Positions 10,537-21,724 of a stretch of DNA of 64,000 nucleotides are shown here, piece by piece (the stretch's first letter is position 1; each line of letters begins with the position of its first letter). The translations under genes were made by a program, and so were the position numbers. This DNA is from Nannochloropsis salina CCMP1776 (lineage: Eukaryota; Sar; Eustigmatophyceae; Eustigmatales; Monodopsidaceae), in assembly GCA_004565275.1 (NCBI GenBank), contig SDOX01000017.1:521585-585584 (forward strand). Reading direction: 5' to 3'. A model generated the notes under the pieces. It ran no database searches and had not been told where the DNA came from. It was given only the letters and a program-made list of their open reading frames with translations.

Positions 10537-12814
10537 ATGAGAATGGCACCGTCATCGGGAGAATCACCGTTGTTTCTCAAAGGTGTTCATGCTTATTTTT
10601 TGGGGCTGAGCAGCAAGATAGCTGCAGCTGCCCGGCAGGCCGTGGAAGCACAAGGTGGCAAAATTATTCCTCCCCGGGCGAAAATACCGCCCATGTTTCA
10701 GAAGGCCAAAGCCGCGGCGGATAATGTCGGCAAATCACTTCCACAAGGCGTGACGCATGTTCTCTGCGACCCTGACATATGCCGGCAGTCCTCACCGGAC
10801 TCGATCCTCCAGGCCCTAGACGTGCAGGGGCCTCTCCCTTCTTCTGTTGTCCTAGTCCGCCTGCCCTGGCTCTCCGAATGTCTGCGTCTGGGACACCGCG
10901 TGGACACGGGACCTTACGAGGTCGACATGAACGCGGCTCCCACTCGGCTGCCAGAGGACGGCCTCACGCCGGGCCCCGGCGTTACGGGTAAGCACAAGAC
11001 CTGTCCCGACGAAGCCACCCAGGGTACGGAGGAGGACGAAGGGGCCACAGCACCGCGTCACAAGCGTCCCCGCATCGTAATACGCCAAGACGCCACCCTC
11101 CCTCCTGCCCCGCCCCTGTTGGAAAGCCGGGACCCCCCCCGGCGGTTGTCCTTCCCTTTCGTGCCTCCCAACCAGATCTGGTCCCTCCACGACCTCGGTC
11201 TCCTCCATCTCCGCGTCCAAAACGCCGACACGGAAGCCCCCCGCCCAGCAATGGCACCGAGGGAAGCTGCTGTCATGCCTCCGTCGCTGACTTCCCCCGC
11301 CTCTCCCATCGCCTCCTCCCCCGCCTCCCTGCCTCGGCCCGCCGCTCCCTCCCCTCCTTCCCTCCCCGACGCCCGCAGTGGGCCTATTTCTCCGGCCACA
11401 CCCAGGGCTCAAACGTCGTCCGTGTCTGCACCTCCCGTCCGTATTGCTGCCTTCGACCTCGACTCCACCCTCATCAAGACCCGCTCCGAGAGCGCCTTTG
11501 CCTCCTCCCCTACCGACTGGCAATGGTTCGCTCCCTCCGTTCCTGCCTCCCTTCGCTCCCTGCACGAGCAGGGCTACAAGATCGTCATCGTTTCCAACCA
11601 GCGTGGGATTGAGAGCAAGAAGACGGACCTCTCCTCCCTCCTCCAGCGCCTCTCTTCCGTCGTGGACGCCCTCCACCTTCCCGGCCTGGAAGGCTTCTTC
11701 GCTACCCATACCAACGTCTTCTACAAGCCGGCGCCCGGGAGTTGGTACCTTCTGGAAGAAAGATACCCGGAGGGCATCGACGTAAGCCGGAGCTTCTTTG
11801 TGGGCGACGCAGCGGGGCGGCCGAAGCAAGGCCCTTTCCGTCCGCGGGACCATGGGGACGGGGACCTGAAGTTCGCCGTGAACGTGGGCATCGCCTTTCA
11901 GACTCCGGAGGAATGCTTTCACAAGAGTCGTAGCCCCCGGGACGCGGGCGCGGAGGCGATGGAGAGGCTTCGGCGCGCCTGGGTTTCGCCGGTCCGGGGC
12001 TACCTGAGGGAGGCAGGGATGGGAGGCTCTGAGGCAGTGATCGCCGCCTGTACCAGTCGATGTACCGAAGAAAGGGAAGGCCGACGTGTGGATGCCCCAA
12101 TTCCCACCCCGCCGAAGGACGGCGGCCCTACATGCTCGGAGACAGGCCCTGTGAGCGGCGATTCTGTCCAGCCTTGTCTGCCCATTCCCCCGCCATCCCA
12201 CCTCCCCTCCCCCCCCCCCTCCTGGCCTGGAAGCCATCCTGTTGGTCGGGGCCCCTGCCAGCGGGAAATCCATGTTTTGCCGCACGACCCTCCCGCACCA
12301 CACCCGCGTCAACCAAGACACCCTCAAGACTCTCGGAAAGTGCCGGCAAGCCGCCGCCCAGGCACTGGGTGAGGGCCACTCCATCGTCATCGACGCCACC
12401 AATGCTCGGAAGGAGCTTCGTAAGGACTGGGCGAGATTTTTGCGCGAATGTCCTCTCTCGGCCCCTCCGTCTTCCCCTGCCTCCTCTTCCTCTTCCTCGC
12501 CCTCGCCCAAGGCCTCGATGCCTTCCCTCCTCCTCAAGCTTGTGGAGTTTCTCCCGCCCAAATCCGCCGTTCTCCACCTTAACGCCTTCCGCGGTGTGAA
12601 CTTGGACGGCGCGCGAAGGACAAGCGAGGCCCCGCGCCGTGTCCCCGACGTGGTCATTCACTCCTACTACAAGAACGCGCAGCCCGTGGGGGAGGCTTGG
12701 AAGGAGGAAGGCTTCGACGCGCACTCGGTTGTCAAGGAGCTGGTGTTGGAGAGGTTCCAAAACCGACGAGAAGCCCATCTGTTCGGGTGTTTTTTACCGG
12801 CGGGGGGGAGGTGA
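10537..12814 (+). CDS. PNKP: Polynucleotide 5'-kinase/3'-phosphatase with N-terminal BRCT-like domain
   Basis: A DNA end-cleaning repair enzyme. Residues about 10-130 look like a BRCT domain (FLKGVHAYFLGL; LPWLSECLRLGHRV). A Ser/Pro linker follows. The HAD phosphatase has AAFDLDSTLIKT with the nucleophile Asp, VIVSNQRGI, YKPAPGSW and FFVGDAAGR. The kinase, from about 12221, has Walker A GAPASGKS, the substrate loop VNQDTLKT and DATNARKELRKDW, ending at the stop near 12812. The phosphatase frame (10537 to about 12150) and kinase frame (about 12221-12814) differ. Between them is an 11-C run at 12209-12219. A short intron is possible, but no donor/acceptor pair is convincing, so an indel in the C run is the simplest reading. 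Animal PNKP carries FHA, not BRCT, at this place. The neighbour is convergent. Confidence 0.85.
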
Positions 12815-13293: not shown

Positions 13294-15231
13294 CTAGAAA
13301 TCGTCCTCTCCCAGGCCCCCCTTCCCAAACTCGGGCAATCCGCTCCCGCTTCTGTCCCCTCGCTGCACTTTCATCATGGACTCCGCGATCGTCTTTCGCA
13401 TCGTGTCGTCGCCTTCCTCGTACATCTGCTTCATCATGTCCATTAATCCGCCCATGGGGTCCCCCTTCCCCAGCCCGGCCCCCCCCGTTCCCCCCCCTGG
13501 CTTCGTCTTGGCTGTCAACCCCATCCAATGATCGTACGACCCGAACTCCCCCTTCTTCTTCTTCAACAGCACCGTCACCCGTCCTTCCTTGACCTTAAAC
13601 TTGCTCTCGCCCGCCACGATCTCCTTCTCGAGGTTGTCCTTCAAGAGCCGGTAGTTCTTCCCTGCCAAGCCCTCCACCTTCAGGTCGAAGGACGTGGGGC
13701 CGAAGGAGCAGGAGACCCATTCCTTAACCTTGCCCACCCCAGGAAGGGTCACGTAGACGGACACCCAGGGACTGTTGTACTCCCCCTGGTCCCAGCCGTA
13801 AGTATCGATGGCAGTGTACGTGGGCGCCAGGCCCGTCACCAAGTCGGAGGGCGACGCGCTCCCCCGGGAGACAGGCTCCTTGGCTGGAGCCGCCGCGGCG
13901 GGGATGGAAGAGGCGGGCGGGGCGGAAACGCTGGCCAGGTCCTTCTCCAAACGCGCGCCTAAGGCGGCCAGGGCGGCTTTCACTTGGGCCCCATGGGCCA
14001 GACCCGCCATCTCCCGGACCTCGACCAATTCCTTTTCGAGCCCCAGCCTCCCAGGCTCCAAAGCCCTGCTGCGCAGCCCTGCCTCCCTGGCTTCCTCCTC
14101 TTTGTCCGCCTCCTTGTCTTCTCCCGGGCCTGTGGGCGTCGAGGGCTCCGCGACTTGGATCAACATCTTTCCCAGGTTGTTCCCGGAAAAGAGGCCGATG
14201 AAAGCTTCTGGAACTTTCTCCAGTCCCTCCCACACCGTCTCCAAGGCCCTTATCTTTTTCTCCCGCAGCAGTTTCCCCAACTTGAGGAACAATTCGTCCG
14301 ACCGCCCGACGTAGTCCGAGGCGAGGAAGCCTTGCCATTTTAGGCAGGAGGCCACCACTTTGAAGTAATTTTTCACCCCGTACGCGGCCTCCGAACCCAA
14401 CACGTGGTACTGGGAAATGCTTCCACAGGCGACGATTCGACCCTGGCGCTTCATTTTGGTCAAAACCGTGTCCAGCGTCGCCCCCCCCACATTGTCCCAG
14501 TACAGGTCTAAGCCCTCCGGGGCCCATTCCTCCAAGGCCGCCGCCACGGTCTGTGTCCGGTAGTTGAAGACGTGGTCGAAGCCTAAGGCCTTTAGGGCCT
14601 CCGCCTTGTTGTCCGAGCCTGTCGATCCGATTACTCTGCATCCCCACAGCTTGCAGAGCTGGCCCACCAGGGAGCCGACGGCTCCGGCCGCGCTCGAGAC
14701 GTACACCGTCTCCCCTGCCTTGGGCTGCCCGATTTCCACGAGGGGGAAGTAGGTAGAGAGCCCGATCAACCCCAAAACATTGAGGTAGGCCGAAGGTGGG
14801 AGGTCAGAGGGCACCTTGTGAAGAGTGTTGGCCTCAAAAGCTGCAAAAGTCGCCCAGACGCCAAGGCCCGAGACGCGGTCCCCGGCTGCAAGACCCGTCA
14901 CATCAGAACCTGTGCTGACGACCTCGCCGATAAACATGGAACTTAAGGGCTTATTTAGCTTAAACGGCGCAAATTCACTCGTATCCTCCTCGTCCTTACT
15001 GTTCGCATTTTGCCCCTTCGTAGCCGCCGTGTCGGTGCTTGAATCAGTAGGCACGGGGTACAGCTTCAGGCGCAGGTAGGGGTCCACACTTAAACACAAA
15101 GTTTTGACCAGCACTTGCGAAGGACCGGGCACAGGCATCGGGCAGATTTGTTTACGGAAGTTGTCAGGCGTGGGTACACCTTCGGGGTAGGACGCCAGGA
15201 CCCACTCCTCATTGCTGCGGCTTGTGGTCAT
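13294..15231 (-). CDS. Zinc-independent MDR oxidoreductase fused to CacyBP/SIP
   Basis: One uninterrupted frame of 645 residues. The frame is open upstream to 15432, but the Met at 15231 fits where MDR proteins begin. Residues about 8-361 are an NADPH-dependent medium-chain reductase of the prostaglandin reductase/2-alkenal reductase type: LSVDPYLR, VSSAAGAVGSLVGQLCKLWG (cofactor loop), YWDNVGG, RIVACGSIS. No structural-zinc Cys cluster is visible. After an acidic linker come all parts of calcyclin-binding protein: the N-terminal helical hairpin (LEKELVEVREM, about 397-435), the CS domain (about 472-560; IDTYGWDQ, FDLKVEGLAGKNYRLL, VLLKKKK) and the SGS tail (GGLMDMMKQMYEEGDDTMRK). CacyBP links SIAH and Skp1 in ubiquitin ligases. 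One frame over 1.9 kb argues for a true fusion; a merged gene pair would need an unseen intron. Confidence 0.85.
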   Translation of the reverse strand: MTTSRSNEEWVLASYPEGVPTPDNFRKQICPMPVPGPSQVLVKTLCLSVDPYLRLKLYPVPTDSSTDTAATKGQNANSKDEEDTSEFAPFKLNKPLSSMFIGEVVSTGSDVTGLAAGDRVSGLGVWATFAAFEANTLHKVPSDLPPSAYLNVLGLIGLSTYFPLVEIGQPKAGETVYVSSAAGAVGSLVGQLCKLWGCRVIGSTGSDNKAEALKALGFDHVFNYRTQTVAAALEEWAPEGLDLYWDNVGGATLDTVLTKMKRQGRIVACGSISQYHVLGSEAAYGVKNYFKVVASCLKWQGFLASDYVGRSDELFLKLGKLLREKKIRALETVWEGLEKVPEAFIGLFSGNNLGKMLIQVAEPSTPTGPGEDKEADKEEEAREAGLRSRALEPGRLGLEKELVEVREMAGLAHGAQVKAALAALGARLEKDLASVSAPPASSIPAAAAPAKEPVSRGSASPSDLVTGLAPTYTAIDTYGWDQGEYNSPWVSVYVTLPGVGKVKEWVSCSFGPTSFDLKVEGLAGKNYRLLKDNLEKEIVAGESKFKVKEGRVTVLLKKKKGEFGSYDHWMGLTAKTKPGGGTGGAGLGKGDPMGGLMDMMKQMYEEGDDTMRKTIAESMMKVQRGDRSGSGLPEFGKGGLGEDDF

Positions 15232-16265
15232 GAGACTGCGGCATGCGAGACGATTTTCAAGGAAAAATCGGTGAGGCTTGGTATGAGTTTGGAAAGAAGT
15301 CAAGACGAAAATGACTGCTAAATCCCCATACATGGCGCTGTATTCTACACACAGAAAGATCGTGCAATTGTCCAGAAACCTGGTCACTTCGTCGTCACAC
15401 AAATGCCATCCTACAAAGACACATTGTTCCATGGAAGTATCGAGAACACTCGCTCCAACGTGCGTGACGTGACGTTTTTCCTGTCTTTTGCCCCAGACAA
15501 AAAGGGCTGGCCGTCCTTGCGCACAATCAAGCCAGAGCTGGAGCTTCTACGCCTGTACTATGGCTTTTTAACGTGTCTTAAAAACATGTGGATGACTTGA
15601 CGTACTGTAACTATTCCGGGCATCATATTTTGGTCTCCAGCGCCGCATTCGCCTGAGGTCTCTCGACCTCCTGCATCAAAGAGAGATGATGATATGTCGC
15701 AAGGCGTAAGAGGAATGTATAGAAAATGTTAACAGGCACAGAAGAAATGCGGACATGGCTGAATCAACGAGCAAATGTAGTGTTTACAGATGGGGGGGGG
15801 GGGACCTTGACAGTGGCATCCCACAGGGCATAATTACGTTCGAGTATGCCAAGTTACCAACCCGATGTGTCTGACATGAATGTACCTCCGTGACATCAAG
15901 GATACGGTTATTTCTTTGAATTTGCCTGTAAGACGGAGCAAAAATGCTGTATTTGCCAGATTTTATTTGACAGGCTCTGAGGCAAGCAACCGTTCACCAG
16001 TGTCTTGTCTGCCTTGAAGGACATGCCCTTAGCATGTTAGCTTTTCCCCCTTTGCTTTTCTCTTCTACGCTTGCCATCCTCATGTCTGCTTCAGGGATAG
16101 AGTCTCCTCTCACCCTTTGTGTTGTATTTTTTTAATCACACCATGCGGACTTCAAAAAGAGATAGGGCCTGGCATATACCTCCTCTTTTGTGACTCAATG
16201 CCTTTACTTAATACTTTGTGCTTCTTTTCAACCCGACCTGGCTGTTTCCTGTTCTCTCTTTTCCC
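15232..16265. other. Intergenic, no gene recognised
   Basis: Upstream of the oxidoreductase-CacyBP gene and downstream of the ankyrin gene. The region is AT-richer and has a run of 10-11 G near 15791. No RNA gene or family match was seen. Confidence 0.45.
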
Positions 16266-18136
16266 TCACGCCACCGAGGCAAACGTGGCAAACGTATCAA
16301 TGATACACAAGGCCGCCGCCATGCCCCCTGCAGCTGCTATATCCCTGGCCGTCAACCCCTCCGCATTTCGGATTGAGGCGTCTGCCCCATTCCGAAGCAA
16401 AGCCTCGAGGCAGCCGACCTTCCCTTCCTGGGCCGCACACATGACAGCCGTCATTCCTTTATCGTCTTGCGCATCCAACAGCCGTTGCCTGTTCAGGCCA
16501 AAGGTGCACCCCACCAGCACTTCCAGGGCGTCAACGTGTCCGCACTGTGCTGCCCAATGCAGGGTGGTGCGTTGCCTACCCCATAGCGGGTTGCCAAGAC
16601 GAGGACAGGCGCCATTTTCCAACAGCAACCGGACCATCTCCATGCACCCTTGGGTCTCTGCCCCGTTCCCGATCCGACTCGCTTCCAGCAGGCATTCCAA
16701 AGCCACGTGCAAAGGCGTCTTGCCCGCCCGATCCGTCAGGTCGGGGGCCGCGCCACGGGCCATCAGGAACTTAGCCATGGGCACTCCTCCTTTCCGAACG
16801 GCTACGTGCAAGGCAGTCTCATGCTCGGCGGCCGTCACGCTCTTGTACTCTTTCCGACTCCGGGGAGAAGGCTTTCCCTCGGCGCCGCCGTCCCCCACGT
16901 CCCTGTCCATGCCAAAGGCAGGAGAGGACAAGGCTCCACGCGAGGACGGGTCCGGAGACTCCACCCAGTTTTGACCTTTTGAGCTGTATTCGTGGACCAG
17001 AAAGCTCTTTCCATCGATGGCCGCCCCAGCCTGCAGGAGCAGATCGGCGATTTCCTCGCTCAACACATTGGCTGCCGTGTGCAAGCCCATGGTCCCGTGT
17101 TCATTTCGCTCGTTCGGATTGGCTCCTGCTTTAAGCAGGGCTGCCACGGCTATCGGACAGGCAATGGAAGCAGCCACGTGCAGGGGGGTATTCCCGTCAG
17201 GACCCACCGCGTTCAGTTGCTCGGAGGAATCGAGAGTTTGTAACAATTGTCTCAAGGCCGCCTCGTCACGGTTCAAAATTGCCTTGTGAAGCTTAAAGTC
17301 GGGCCCTTTCATTGCTAGCCGCATGACTTCGTCGTGCGCGTAGTGCCACGGTTGACTCTGGTAGCGGTCTTCTATGAAACAGTCCGCGCCAGCGGCGACT
17401 AGCGCAGAAATGACTTGAAGTTTGCGCTCGCGCGTACCCCTTCCCATAGCTGTGCATTAGGGCAGTCAGGTATGTGGTGAGTGACCTCGTATGAAATCCT
17501 CCTGCGGAACTGTATTGTCTCACTTCTACTTACCTGCCAAATGTAACGGTGTTGCAGAGCTGATGTCGTTGACCTTGTTGACGGAGGCACCCAAATCGAT
17601 CAAGCACCGTACCGCATCTACATGTCCAGCGATCGCCGCCAAATGGAGCGCCGTCTGTCCACCGCCGCCTAGGGCATCTGCCCAATCAACTGAGACTCCT
17701 CCCTGAACAAAGTTAGGGAAGAAATAAGGTAAAAGAATATTTACCATCCGTGGATAGCACATAGAGCCAACACGAAAGGCGAGAGGAAATCTCGGCGTGT
17801 TAGGCAACGTTGAGGGGGAAAAAGAGGAAAATCAAGCAAGATATGGAACAACTTGTCAATCGCCATAGTTGACCTGAATCCATGAGGGATCGTCTTGCAG
17901 AGTTGCGCTTGTTCAGAACTCACCTGTACAAGATCTCGAATCGTTGCGGCATCATTATGAGAGGCCGCGCTTAATAACGCCTCCCCCTGCAATTGCTCCG
18001 AGGAGCGCTTCCGGCCTCTTCTCCTTCCCGTATCACCGTTGCTTTCCTCTTGTGGCGTGCGTGCCTCACTATCGTACACACCGCCGACCGGCACGGACAC
18101 CGCGAGGCTCGTAGGTGCTTCTTCTGAATCACTCAT
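16266..18136 (-). CDS. Ankyrin-repeat protein
   Basis: Three exons, complement of join(16266..17449, 17534..17702, 17924..18136), 521 residues; phases 0 and 1 agree and the donors are GTGAGT and GTAAGT. After an acidic, Arg/Lys-containing N-terminus (GRRRGRKRSSE), ankyrin repeats run to the C-terminus. Clear examples are QTALHLAAIAGHVDAVRCLI, NTPLHVAASIACPIAVAALL, GLHTAANVLSEEIADLLLQA, KTPLHVALECL, TTLHWAAQCGHVDALEVLV and MTAVMCAAQEGKVGCLEALL. The repeat array is crossed by both introns, and the spliced product restores the repeat spacing, which supports the model. Ankyrin arrays bind protein partners. No catalytic or membrane domain is seen, so a specific role cannot be given. Confidence 0.85.
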
Positions 18137-19192: not shown

Positions 19193-21724
19193 TTACATCT
19201 CCACCAACACCGAATTTTCCAAGTAACGGCCAGCTGTTGGCATGGGGGACCCTCCTCCATTCATCGAGGATATGGGCCCTAAATTGACAGCGGGCAGAAC
19301 ATGAGGGACTACCTCCTCCGCACCTTGTCGCCCCACGTCGTCGGCCCGCATGATCAGGGGATGGATAGCGGGGGGATCCCCGAGGGAGGATGGCGTGGTC
19401 GACGCGGCGGGAATGAAGACAAGCTGTGCATCTAGAGAGCTCTTCCCGTTCTGGGTCGTCACCGAGGCCCGCGCATGCTCCCCTCCACACTTTCCTCCTT
19501 TTTTACCTCCCACCCTTGCGGCCTCTGCGTCGCTCGGTCGTTTCCGCTTTCGGCCCCCTCCTGAGGCCTTTTTCCCCCTTCCATTAGGACCTGAGAAAGA
19601 ACCCGTGGCATCCGCATCCGTGAGGTGAGCCTCCCCGCCCCCATGCCCACTGAGACCGGCGCCCCCGGGCTTTGAAGGGTCAAAAGTACGAGACGCAGCC
19701 AGCTTGTGATGGGAGGAGGGGAGCAAATGGCTCAGGGGCAAGGCCTCATGCGACTCCCACAACGTCCTGTAGGCGTTCATGGCTTCTTGGTAGCGGTCCC
19801 GAGGGAAGGTCGGGGCGATGCGCTGAATTGCGTCCGCAAGGGCCGCCTCCAGTTCGGGTCCGGGGGGTCGAAGCGTGATGCCCGTCAAGAACGTTCCGCG
19901 AACTTTCCTGACGTCGGCAACTGCAAAGGAAGATTCGCAGGCAGAGGAAGCAGCGGCGGTGGTGGTAGGCGGCAGGGGATGTGTCGAGGGATCGCTGTCT
20001 GGGGCCCGCGGCAACGAGGGGGGGGAAGTAAAGGGAAGGGAAGAGGAGCGTCCAGGAGCCAGGGCCTGCCCCACCCCATTCTTGCCGCTTGCGCTCTGAC
20101 TCCCGACATCCTCCGTCGATCTTCCTCCCTCCAACTCCTCTTTCTCCCCCTCCCCGCCCATCCGAGCTATCTCTCCTCCCAAGCCTCCCGGCCCCAGGCC
20201 TGCCCGCCCCCTTCTCGGCACCCGCATCGGGTGAATGCGCACCGTGCACTCCCTCCGCCACTCTCGGCCCTGCTTCAACGCTCGAAGCCCCGCTTCGTCG
20301 ACTTCTTTCATCCGCGTCATTCCTTTGGCGACGGCGAACCAGGTGTTCGCCTCGGTGAGGGGCTTAAGGCCCAGGCAGGGGGGTCCGAGCAGCTTCAGGA
20401 TGAAGGTCCAGATGCTGTGGCCGCCCGCCTGCTGCGCATCCGTGACCACGTACCCATCCGGGTCGGTTTCTGTCACTGCCACCAATACCCGGAGGAAGGC
20501 CTCCACGTCCACGCCCGTCCCCCTCCCTCCCTCCCTCTTCCCTTTCTTTCCCCCTTTCCCCGCCTTTCCTCCAAGCCCCCCCTCACCCTCGACCCAACCC
20601 TCCACATTCTCTCCCTCCCCCATCGCTCCCTGCGGCGTCGGCGGCCCTCGGGGCTGATAGTGCGGATGGAGCAAGCCACTGTCTCCCCTCACCTGCGCCA
20701 CTGCCTTCACCAGGGCTTGAAAGGGGTTCTCTTCCTTCTTCGCCAGCGCCTCCTCCGCGGCCGCCGTCCTCCACAAATTCCGGCGCCGGCCTCCGTGCGG
20801 GCCCGTCAGCCTATTGTGCACGCATATGGGCCTTTGAATATCCAAGGGTTCGTGAGACATCCAGACGGTCGAGAGATACTCCTCCACCACTACGGCAAAT
20901 TGCGCCGGGCTTAGACCAGGGGCGACAGACGCGACGGCGGCCTGGAACTGGGGGTAGAAGGTGGGGTCGCGCATCGGGTCTTTCAAGGAGACGCCCACGA
21001 TGAAGGTACCCCGGACGGACACGGGCCCTCCCGAGGATCCCCTCGGGACCCGCATGAAATACTCGCTGCTCCGACATTCCCGCTCCCAGCGTATGGGCCC
21101 CAGGAGGGCGTTCAAACGCTCCGCTTTCTTTTCTCCCCACTGGCTCAAGGCCCGGGTCAAGCTCCGCCAGGTCCCGCTCTCGTTGGCTTCGGACCGGCCC
21201 AGGCAGGAAGAGCCAAAGAGACGGACGAGGTAACGCCATAGACTGTGCCCTCCCACCAGGGTTTCGTCCGTGACTATAAAGCCCTTAGGGTTCGGGACCA
21301 CGAGGGCCCCGACAACGAGGAGGAGGGAGTCGATATCGACGGGCAGCCGGAGCGGACGGGGTTGGTAGTTGGGGAAAAGCAGGTAGCACGTGGAGTGCCG
21401 GTCGGGCAAGGCTGTAGAAACGGCGTGCGACGGGGGAAGCGTGCCCGCGCTTGTTCCTGAAGGTGGCCCTCCTTCTCTCGGATTGCTTTGAGAGCTCCAT
21501 GGGGTCTCTACCTCCGAGTTCGTGCTGCCTTCTGTCGTGACTGTCGGTAGGGGTGGGCCATCGGATCCTACTTGTGCTGCCTGCGCCACAGTCGAGGCAG
21601 TGGTGTGGTCATGGACATGTCTGCCAGCGACATCTTCATGCTTGGCTATTTCCGACGTCTTCTCTGCATCCTTTGTCATCCTGAATCTGGTGTGTTGCAA
21701 AAGGGGGGGTTGAGGAGGGTTCAC
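19193..21724 (-). CDS. Orphan protein with a tandemly duplicated unknown domain
   Basis: A single frame of 843 residues, or 828 from the second Met (MTKDAEK). It carries the same unknown domain twice, at residues about 130-296 and 406-663. Matching blocks are GFIVTDETLVGGHSLWRYL / GYVVTDAQQAGGHSIWTFI, then SSCLG / PPCLG, then TWRSLTRALSQ / TWFAVAKGMTR, then WEREC / WRREC, then FMRVPR / PMRVPR. A low-complexity insert follows in the second copy, then VRGTFIVGVSL / VRGTFLTGITL and TVWMSHEPL / TLWESHEAL. The C-terminus has a strong basic cluster (GRKRKRPSD, GGKKGGK) like a nuclear signal. I do not recognise the family. Conserved Trp, Cys, Gly-Gly-His and Arg positions suggest a folded, possibly DNA- or protein-binding module, but that is inference. 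The start is divergent from the WAPL gene. Confidence 0.75.
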   Translation of the reverse strand: MNPPQPPLLQHTRFRMTKDAEKTSEIAKHEDVAGRHVHDHTTASTVAQAAQVGSDGPPLPTVTTEGSTNSEVETPWSSQSNPREGGPPSGTSAGTLPPSHAVSTALPDRHSTCYLLFPNYQPRPLRLPVDIDSLLLVVGALVVPNPKGFIVTDETLVGGHSLWRYLVRLFGSSCLGRSEANESGTWRSLTRALSQWGEKKAERLNALLGPIRWERECRSSEYFMRVPRGSSGGPVSVRGTFIVGVSLKDPMRDPTFYPQFQAAVASVAPGLSPAQFAVVVEEYLSTVWMSHEPLDIQRPICVHNRLTGPHGGRRRNLWRTAAAEEALAKKEENPFQALVKAVAQVRGDSGLLHPHYQPRGPPTPQGAMGEGENVEGWVEGEGGLGGKAGKGGKKGKREGGRGTGVDVEAFLRVLVAVTETDPDGYVVTDAQQAGGHSIWTFILKLLGPPCLGLKPLTEANTWFAVAKGMTRMKEVDEAGLRALKQGREWRRECTVRIHPMRVPRRGRAGLGPGGLGGEIARMGGEGEKEELEGGRSTEDVGSQSASGKNGVGQALAPGRSSSLPFTSPPSLPRAPDSDPSTHPLPPTTTAAASSACESSFAVADVRKVRGTFLTGITLRPPGPELEAALADAIQRIAPTFPRDRYQEAMNAYRTLWESHEALPLSHLLPSSHHKLAASRTFDPSKPGGAGLSGHGGGEAHLTDADATGSFSGPNGRGKKASGGGRKRKRPSDAEAARVGGKKGGKCGGEHARASVTTQNGKSSLDAQLVFIPAASTTPSSLGDPPAIHPLIMRADDVGRQGAEEVVPHVLPAVNLGPISSMNGGGSPMPTAGRYLENSVLVEM

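Follow-up and report, generated by a model that had tools for sequence, protein, structure and literature searches.

The prostaglandin/2-alkenal reductases and calcyclin-binding protein (CacyBP/SIP) belong to families that both form homodimers, and animal members of the CacyBP family carry P-x-A-x-V-x-P as their SIAH-binding motif. Dimerisation of CacyBP under oxidative stress is said to have been the subject of an earlier study, and to our knowledge the role of CacyBP outside animals has been little studied. The fusion of two domains is often a sign that the proteins concerned act together. A CS domain is found within an NAD(P)H oxidoreductase in NCB5OR, which consists of cytochrome b5, CS and b5 reductase and whose CS domain comes without hairpin and SGS parts. 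NCB5OR is treated as a b5/b5-reductase fusion in PMC9687028, which cites a work with the CS domain in its title. Human CacyBP is described as binding HSP90 and acting as a chaperone, with Skp1 and S100 proteins said there to be bound through its CS and C-terminal parts (PMC4889068). In Plasmodium, CacyBP is described as binding Skp1 directly and as a member of an SCF-like complex, and in the same source the homologues of p53, beta-catenin and ERK1/2 appear to be absent from this organism (PMC10927090); the Skp1 link would therefore be independent of the animal pathway. A calcyclin-binding protein of Phaeodactylum (B7FQH4) is tabulated in PMC5070409, in a table that is silent on whether the protein is fused.

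Within the 64,000-nucleotide stretch of DNA that was analysed (the window), positions 13294..15231 of the reverse strand translate as one frame of 645 codons plus a terminal stop, with zero internal stops, and the enclosing stop-to-stop frame in the assembly measures 750 codons. From its translation we read this frame as a real fusion gene that joins reductase and CacyBP parts. The initial annotation had proposed an in-frame fusion of these two modules without a stop: the 645-codon open frame bears out the fusion, and the names given to both halves are upheld by the comparisons with Pfam, the PDB and human CacyBP. We found no report of a reductase-CacyBP fusion in the open-licence literature, for which mostly the best-ranked matches were listed. 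Compared with CacyBP/SIP, the fused protein contains a putative hairpin, the CS domain and the SGS-type tail in identical order, but its version is not free-standing and has neither a start codon of its own nor the SIAH-binding motif. The placement of a CS domain inside an NAD(P)H oxidoreductase is shared with NCB5OR, which differs in belonging to another enzyme class than the MDR reductases and in the hairpin and SGS parts missing around its CS domain.

Residues 1-361 (14149..15231, reverse strand) are, as judged from their sequence, a full prostaglandin/2-alkenal reductase-type MDR enzyme. Within the first 358 residues, the Pfam families ADH_N_2 (63.4 bits), ADH_zinc_N (77.2 bits) and ADH_zinc_N_2 (42.7 bits) all scored above their cut-offs, and ADH_N, the fifth of the five families listed for the fused protein, scored below its own. 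In the PDB search, residues 5-361 aligned with 2j3h, a plant 2-alkenal reductase (6.1e-64), and this alignment stops at residue 361, the usual end of the free-standing enzymes. The best PDB matches were the oxidoreductase 4b7c, plant double-bond reductases and 2j3h, with prostaglandin reductase 1 ranking lower. In the PDB alignments, AAGAVG (at 181), Lys209 and Tyr275 of ISQY stand in register with solved family members; we take these to be the NADPH motif, the phosphate contact and the family's tyrosine, respectively. The NCBIfam equivalog models were scored at 251.3 bits for curcumin reductase (cut-off 440) and at 200.3 bits for LTB4 12-hydroxydehydrogenase/15-oxo-prostaglandin 13-reductase (PTGR1; cut-off 579.85), and since both scores fall below the equivalog cut-offs, the reductase family is clear but no substrate is claimed. 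The label "zinc-independent" was taken over from the family assignment. Both the plant 2-alkenal/double-bond reductases and mammalian prostaglandin reductase 1 share with the fused reductase the enzyme length, the ADH_N_2 and ADH_zinc_N domains, AAGAVG, Lys209 and Tyr275. It differs from the plant enzymes in an insertion near residues 60-86, and from the free-standing plant and mammalian reductases in the 284-residue C-terminal extension of the fused protein. A longer N-terminus starting from an in-frame ATG at 15432 was considered and rejected: the resulting 67-codon extension is not coding-like (GC 0.45, codon score -0.042), and we therefore claim no targeting peptide. The fused protein is predicted to be cytosolic, no coding-like N-terminal extension having been seen.

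The C-terminal half (residues 398-645) was called a complete CacyBP/SIP in the initial annotation, and its three parts fared differently. The CS domain (residues 477-558; 13558..13803, reverse strand), which is of CacyBP type and has a YGWDQ motif at its start, stands on all counts: Pfam CS matched it with 42.1 bits (cut-off 21.3), a PDB search with residues 357-645 alone matched the CacyBP CS structure 1x5m (2.4e-13), and none of 2000 shuffled versions of this segment scored as high against human CacyBP as the real sequence, the human reference sequence having been checked against PDB chains. The SGS-type segment (residues 591-626; 13354..13461, reverse strand) holds as well by pairwise comparison, with 0 of 2000 shuffles reaching the score of the C-terminal part against human CacyBP, so that this part and the CS domain both lie far beyond chance; Pfam SGS gave no match to the fused protein. 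The same PDB search also matched the S100A6-bound C-terminal peptide of CacyBP, 2jtt, at 0.0033. Its other 11 matches, of 13 in all, range from 0.00019 to 0.84 and bear the names of antibody-derived chains; we take them as chance matches, and an E value of about 0.003, as for 2jtt, is therefore not strong alone.

The claimed N-terminal helical hairpin (residues 398-432; 13936..14040, reverse strand) aligns without gaps over 35 residues to human 6-40, with a score that 12 of 2000 shuffles reached. The Pfam model Siah-Interact_N (PF09032) gave no match to the fused protein, and in one of the searches with it no control matched either. The hairpin match is thus modest and suggestive, its position and orientation fitting CacyBP. 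Because the Siah-Interact_N and SGS models both miss, the description of this half as complete rests on pairwise comparison. AlphaFold, run without an alignment, gave models of low confidence (mean pLDDT 48.4, and 39.9 for the full length); the first has helices at the expected place of the hairpin, beta strands across the CS domain and a pair of helices at the C-terminus.

SGT1 also combines a CS domain with an SGS-type tail, as in the fused protein. An SGT1-like gene with Pfam SGS and CS matches, whose TPR part was read by eye, lies on contig C72 of the genome, and Pfam SGS matches in the whole genome occur in this gene only. The TPR that precedes CS-SGS as the hallmark of SGT1 is absent from the five Pfam families listed for the fused protein. 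We rejected the reading of the tail as SGT1, given that the SGT1-like gene sits elsewhere and that the fused protein scores far nearer to CacyBP (246 against human CacyBP, compared with 58 for the SGT1-like gene).

The genome searched comprises 26.5 Mb in 103 contigs, with exons left unjoined and the best candidates scored. It returned, as matches to the fused protein, the locus itself, the sole full-length one found, and five more, four of them in open frames of 2781-2949 codons, which are PKS-like in our reading, and the fifth weak. Across the whole genome, Pfam ADH_N_2 matches at the fused gene only. Pfam CS matched ten times at E <= 0.1, once in the fused gene and nine times at eight other loci, whose best frames score 33-62 against human CacyBP, compared with the 246 of the fused protein. 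Two CS matches on contig C37 (L014 / L015) lie in one 343-codon open frame. No second locus of either module was found in the 26.5 Mb; a copy that is highly divergent or much split could have escaped them, because the searches leave exons unjoined and score the best candidates. Beyond this genome, two sets of 51 and 351 pattern matches in viral contigs contained 0 relatives of the CacyBP part, and 131 pattern matches in genome contigs contained one weak relative of the reductase (27% identity over residues 95-264); the patterns are narrow, and these low counts are therefore no evidence of rarity.

The light-harvesting family is represented by 27 matches in the genome, the one compared being closest to fucoxanthin chlorophyll proteins; we take the host to be a photosynthetic alga, and the match compared suggests the red lineage. 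Skp1, cullins, HSP90 and the SGT1-like gene are encoded elsewhere in the genome. We found no match to Sina or Sina_TRAF in the genome, although this is weak as an absence since the control genomes were silent too, and the motif P-x-A-x-V-x-P is absent from the fused protein. On these two grounds, the coupling to a SIAH ligase that the initial annotation had raised is unsupported and was rejected. The link to Skp1 and HSP90 that it had also raised fared better and is plausible, the partners being encoded and the CacyBP of Plasmodium being described as a binder of Skp1 (PMC10927090). Among the roles considered here for the C-terminal half, the predicted link to Skp1 has the most support.

Whether the locus yields one product or several depends on the junction, where an acidic linker (residues 362-397; 14041..14148, reverse strand), by eye probably disordered, separates the two modules. 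Its in-frame codon score of 0.163 is reached by 4 of 128 intergenic and 72 of 1180 wrong-frame windows, 52 of 236 true-frame windows lie at or below it, and one reverse frame across the linker scores 0.169; the score is weak evidence, compatible with coding and not decisive. The stretch between codon 356, in the final strand of the reductase, and codon 408, in the first hairpin helix, is free of ATG in all forward frames, so that a separate CacyBP including the entire hairpin would have no ATG nearby to start from. This lack of an ATG, together with the lack of a stop at the usual end of the reductase, argues against the locus giving rise to two products, be it the long fusion plus a shorter CacyBP from Met408, or two transcripts made by splicing or alternative poly(A). 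Met408 (14008-14010) does have a better start context (GAGATGG, with a purine at -3 and G at +4) than Met1 (CTCATGA, with neither), so that a shorter separate CacyBP product could be made, and introns occur in algae in general; starting at Met408, however, would remove about 10 residues of the first hairpin helix, and overall we regard two products as unlikely. An assembly or base error that erased a stop codon between two genes is more improbable still. A single substitution in the linker would suffice for it, and the locus is represented by one assembly only, but the start codon of CacyBP would still be missing under such an error, the frame is kept on either side, and the codon scores are coding-like.

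We consider it probable that this is a genuine algal fusion gene and that it gives rise to one 645-residue protein in which both modules work, the likeliest reading of the sequence being an NADPH-dependent enal reductase that is tethered both to Skp1/SCF and to HSP90. A serious rival, which accounts for the data about equally well, is that two housekeeping proteins were joined neutrally, for example when a stop codon between neighbours was lost in a compact genome, and now act as independent beads on a string. We judge its chances to fall only slightly short of even, and this estimate overlaps with that for the preferred reading, as a single protein is common to both. Consistent with neutrality, each module retains its own recognisable features, the linker is acidic and disordered-looking, and the titles and abstract starts in the open-licence literature gave no pathway common to CacyBP and the prostaglandin/alkenal reductases. 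Against it stands that both modules are known here in the joined form only, no second copy of either having been found, with which neutrality is nevertheless still compatible.

If both modules do work within one protein, as we prefer, the N-terminal half would be an active NADPH-dependent enal/enone reductase that clears lipid-peroxidation products, as its family and motifs suggest; we infer this activity from the retention of both the NADPH motif and the tyrosine typical of the family. The C-terminal half may dock to Skp1/SCF and/or HSP90 via its CS and SGS parts. The fusion could then form one stable dimer, bringing the detoxification of aldehydes to the machinery of protein quality control, or the enal or NADPH state might influence that machinery. 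We hypothesise, tentatively and with more doubt than confidence, that the two halves influence each other's activity. It seems unlikely that the protein is a lineage-specific enzyme-scaffold that builds a carbonyl-detoxifying reductase permanently into SCF/HSP90 quality control, with enal load or NADPH state deciding which proteins are refolded or ubiquitinated. Provided that the fusion is expressed as a protein, neither half exists in this alga outside the joined form, within the reach of our searches. The joined form would be a natural tether experiment on CacyBP that suggests a link between aldehyde clearance and SCF/HSP90 quality control, and the fusion would yield a concrete hypothesis that could be carried over to organisms in which CacyBP and alkenal reductases are free-standing.

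Several other open frames surround the fusion gene in the window. On the forward strand, a polynucleotide kinase 3'-phosphatase-like gene (10537-12814) is divided between two frames, with the PNK3P phosphatase in the ORF at 10537-12372 and the AAA_33 kinase part in the ORF at 12242-12814; the two join near a C-rich run, through either a frame slip or an intron. A 393-codon open frame with ankyrin repeats (16266-17447) lies on the same reverse strand as the fusion gene and upstream of it. Further along this strand, an open frame of 843 residues (19193-21724) has no Pfam match at E 0.01 and seems, by eye, to contain two related segments.
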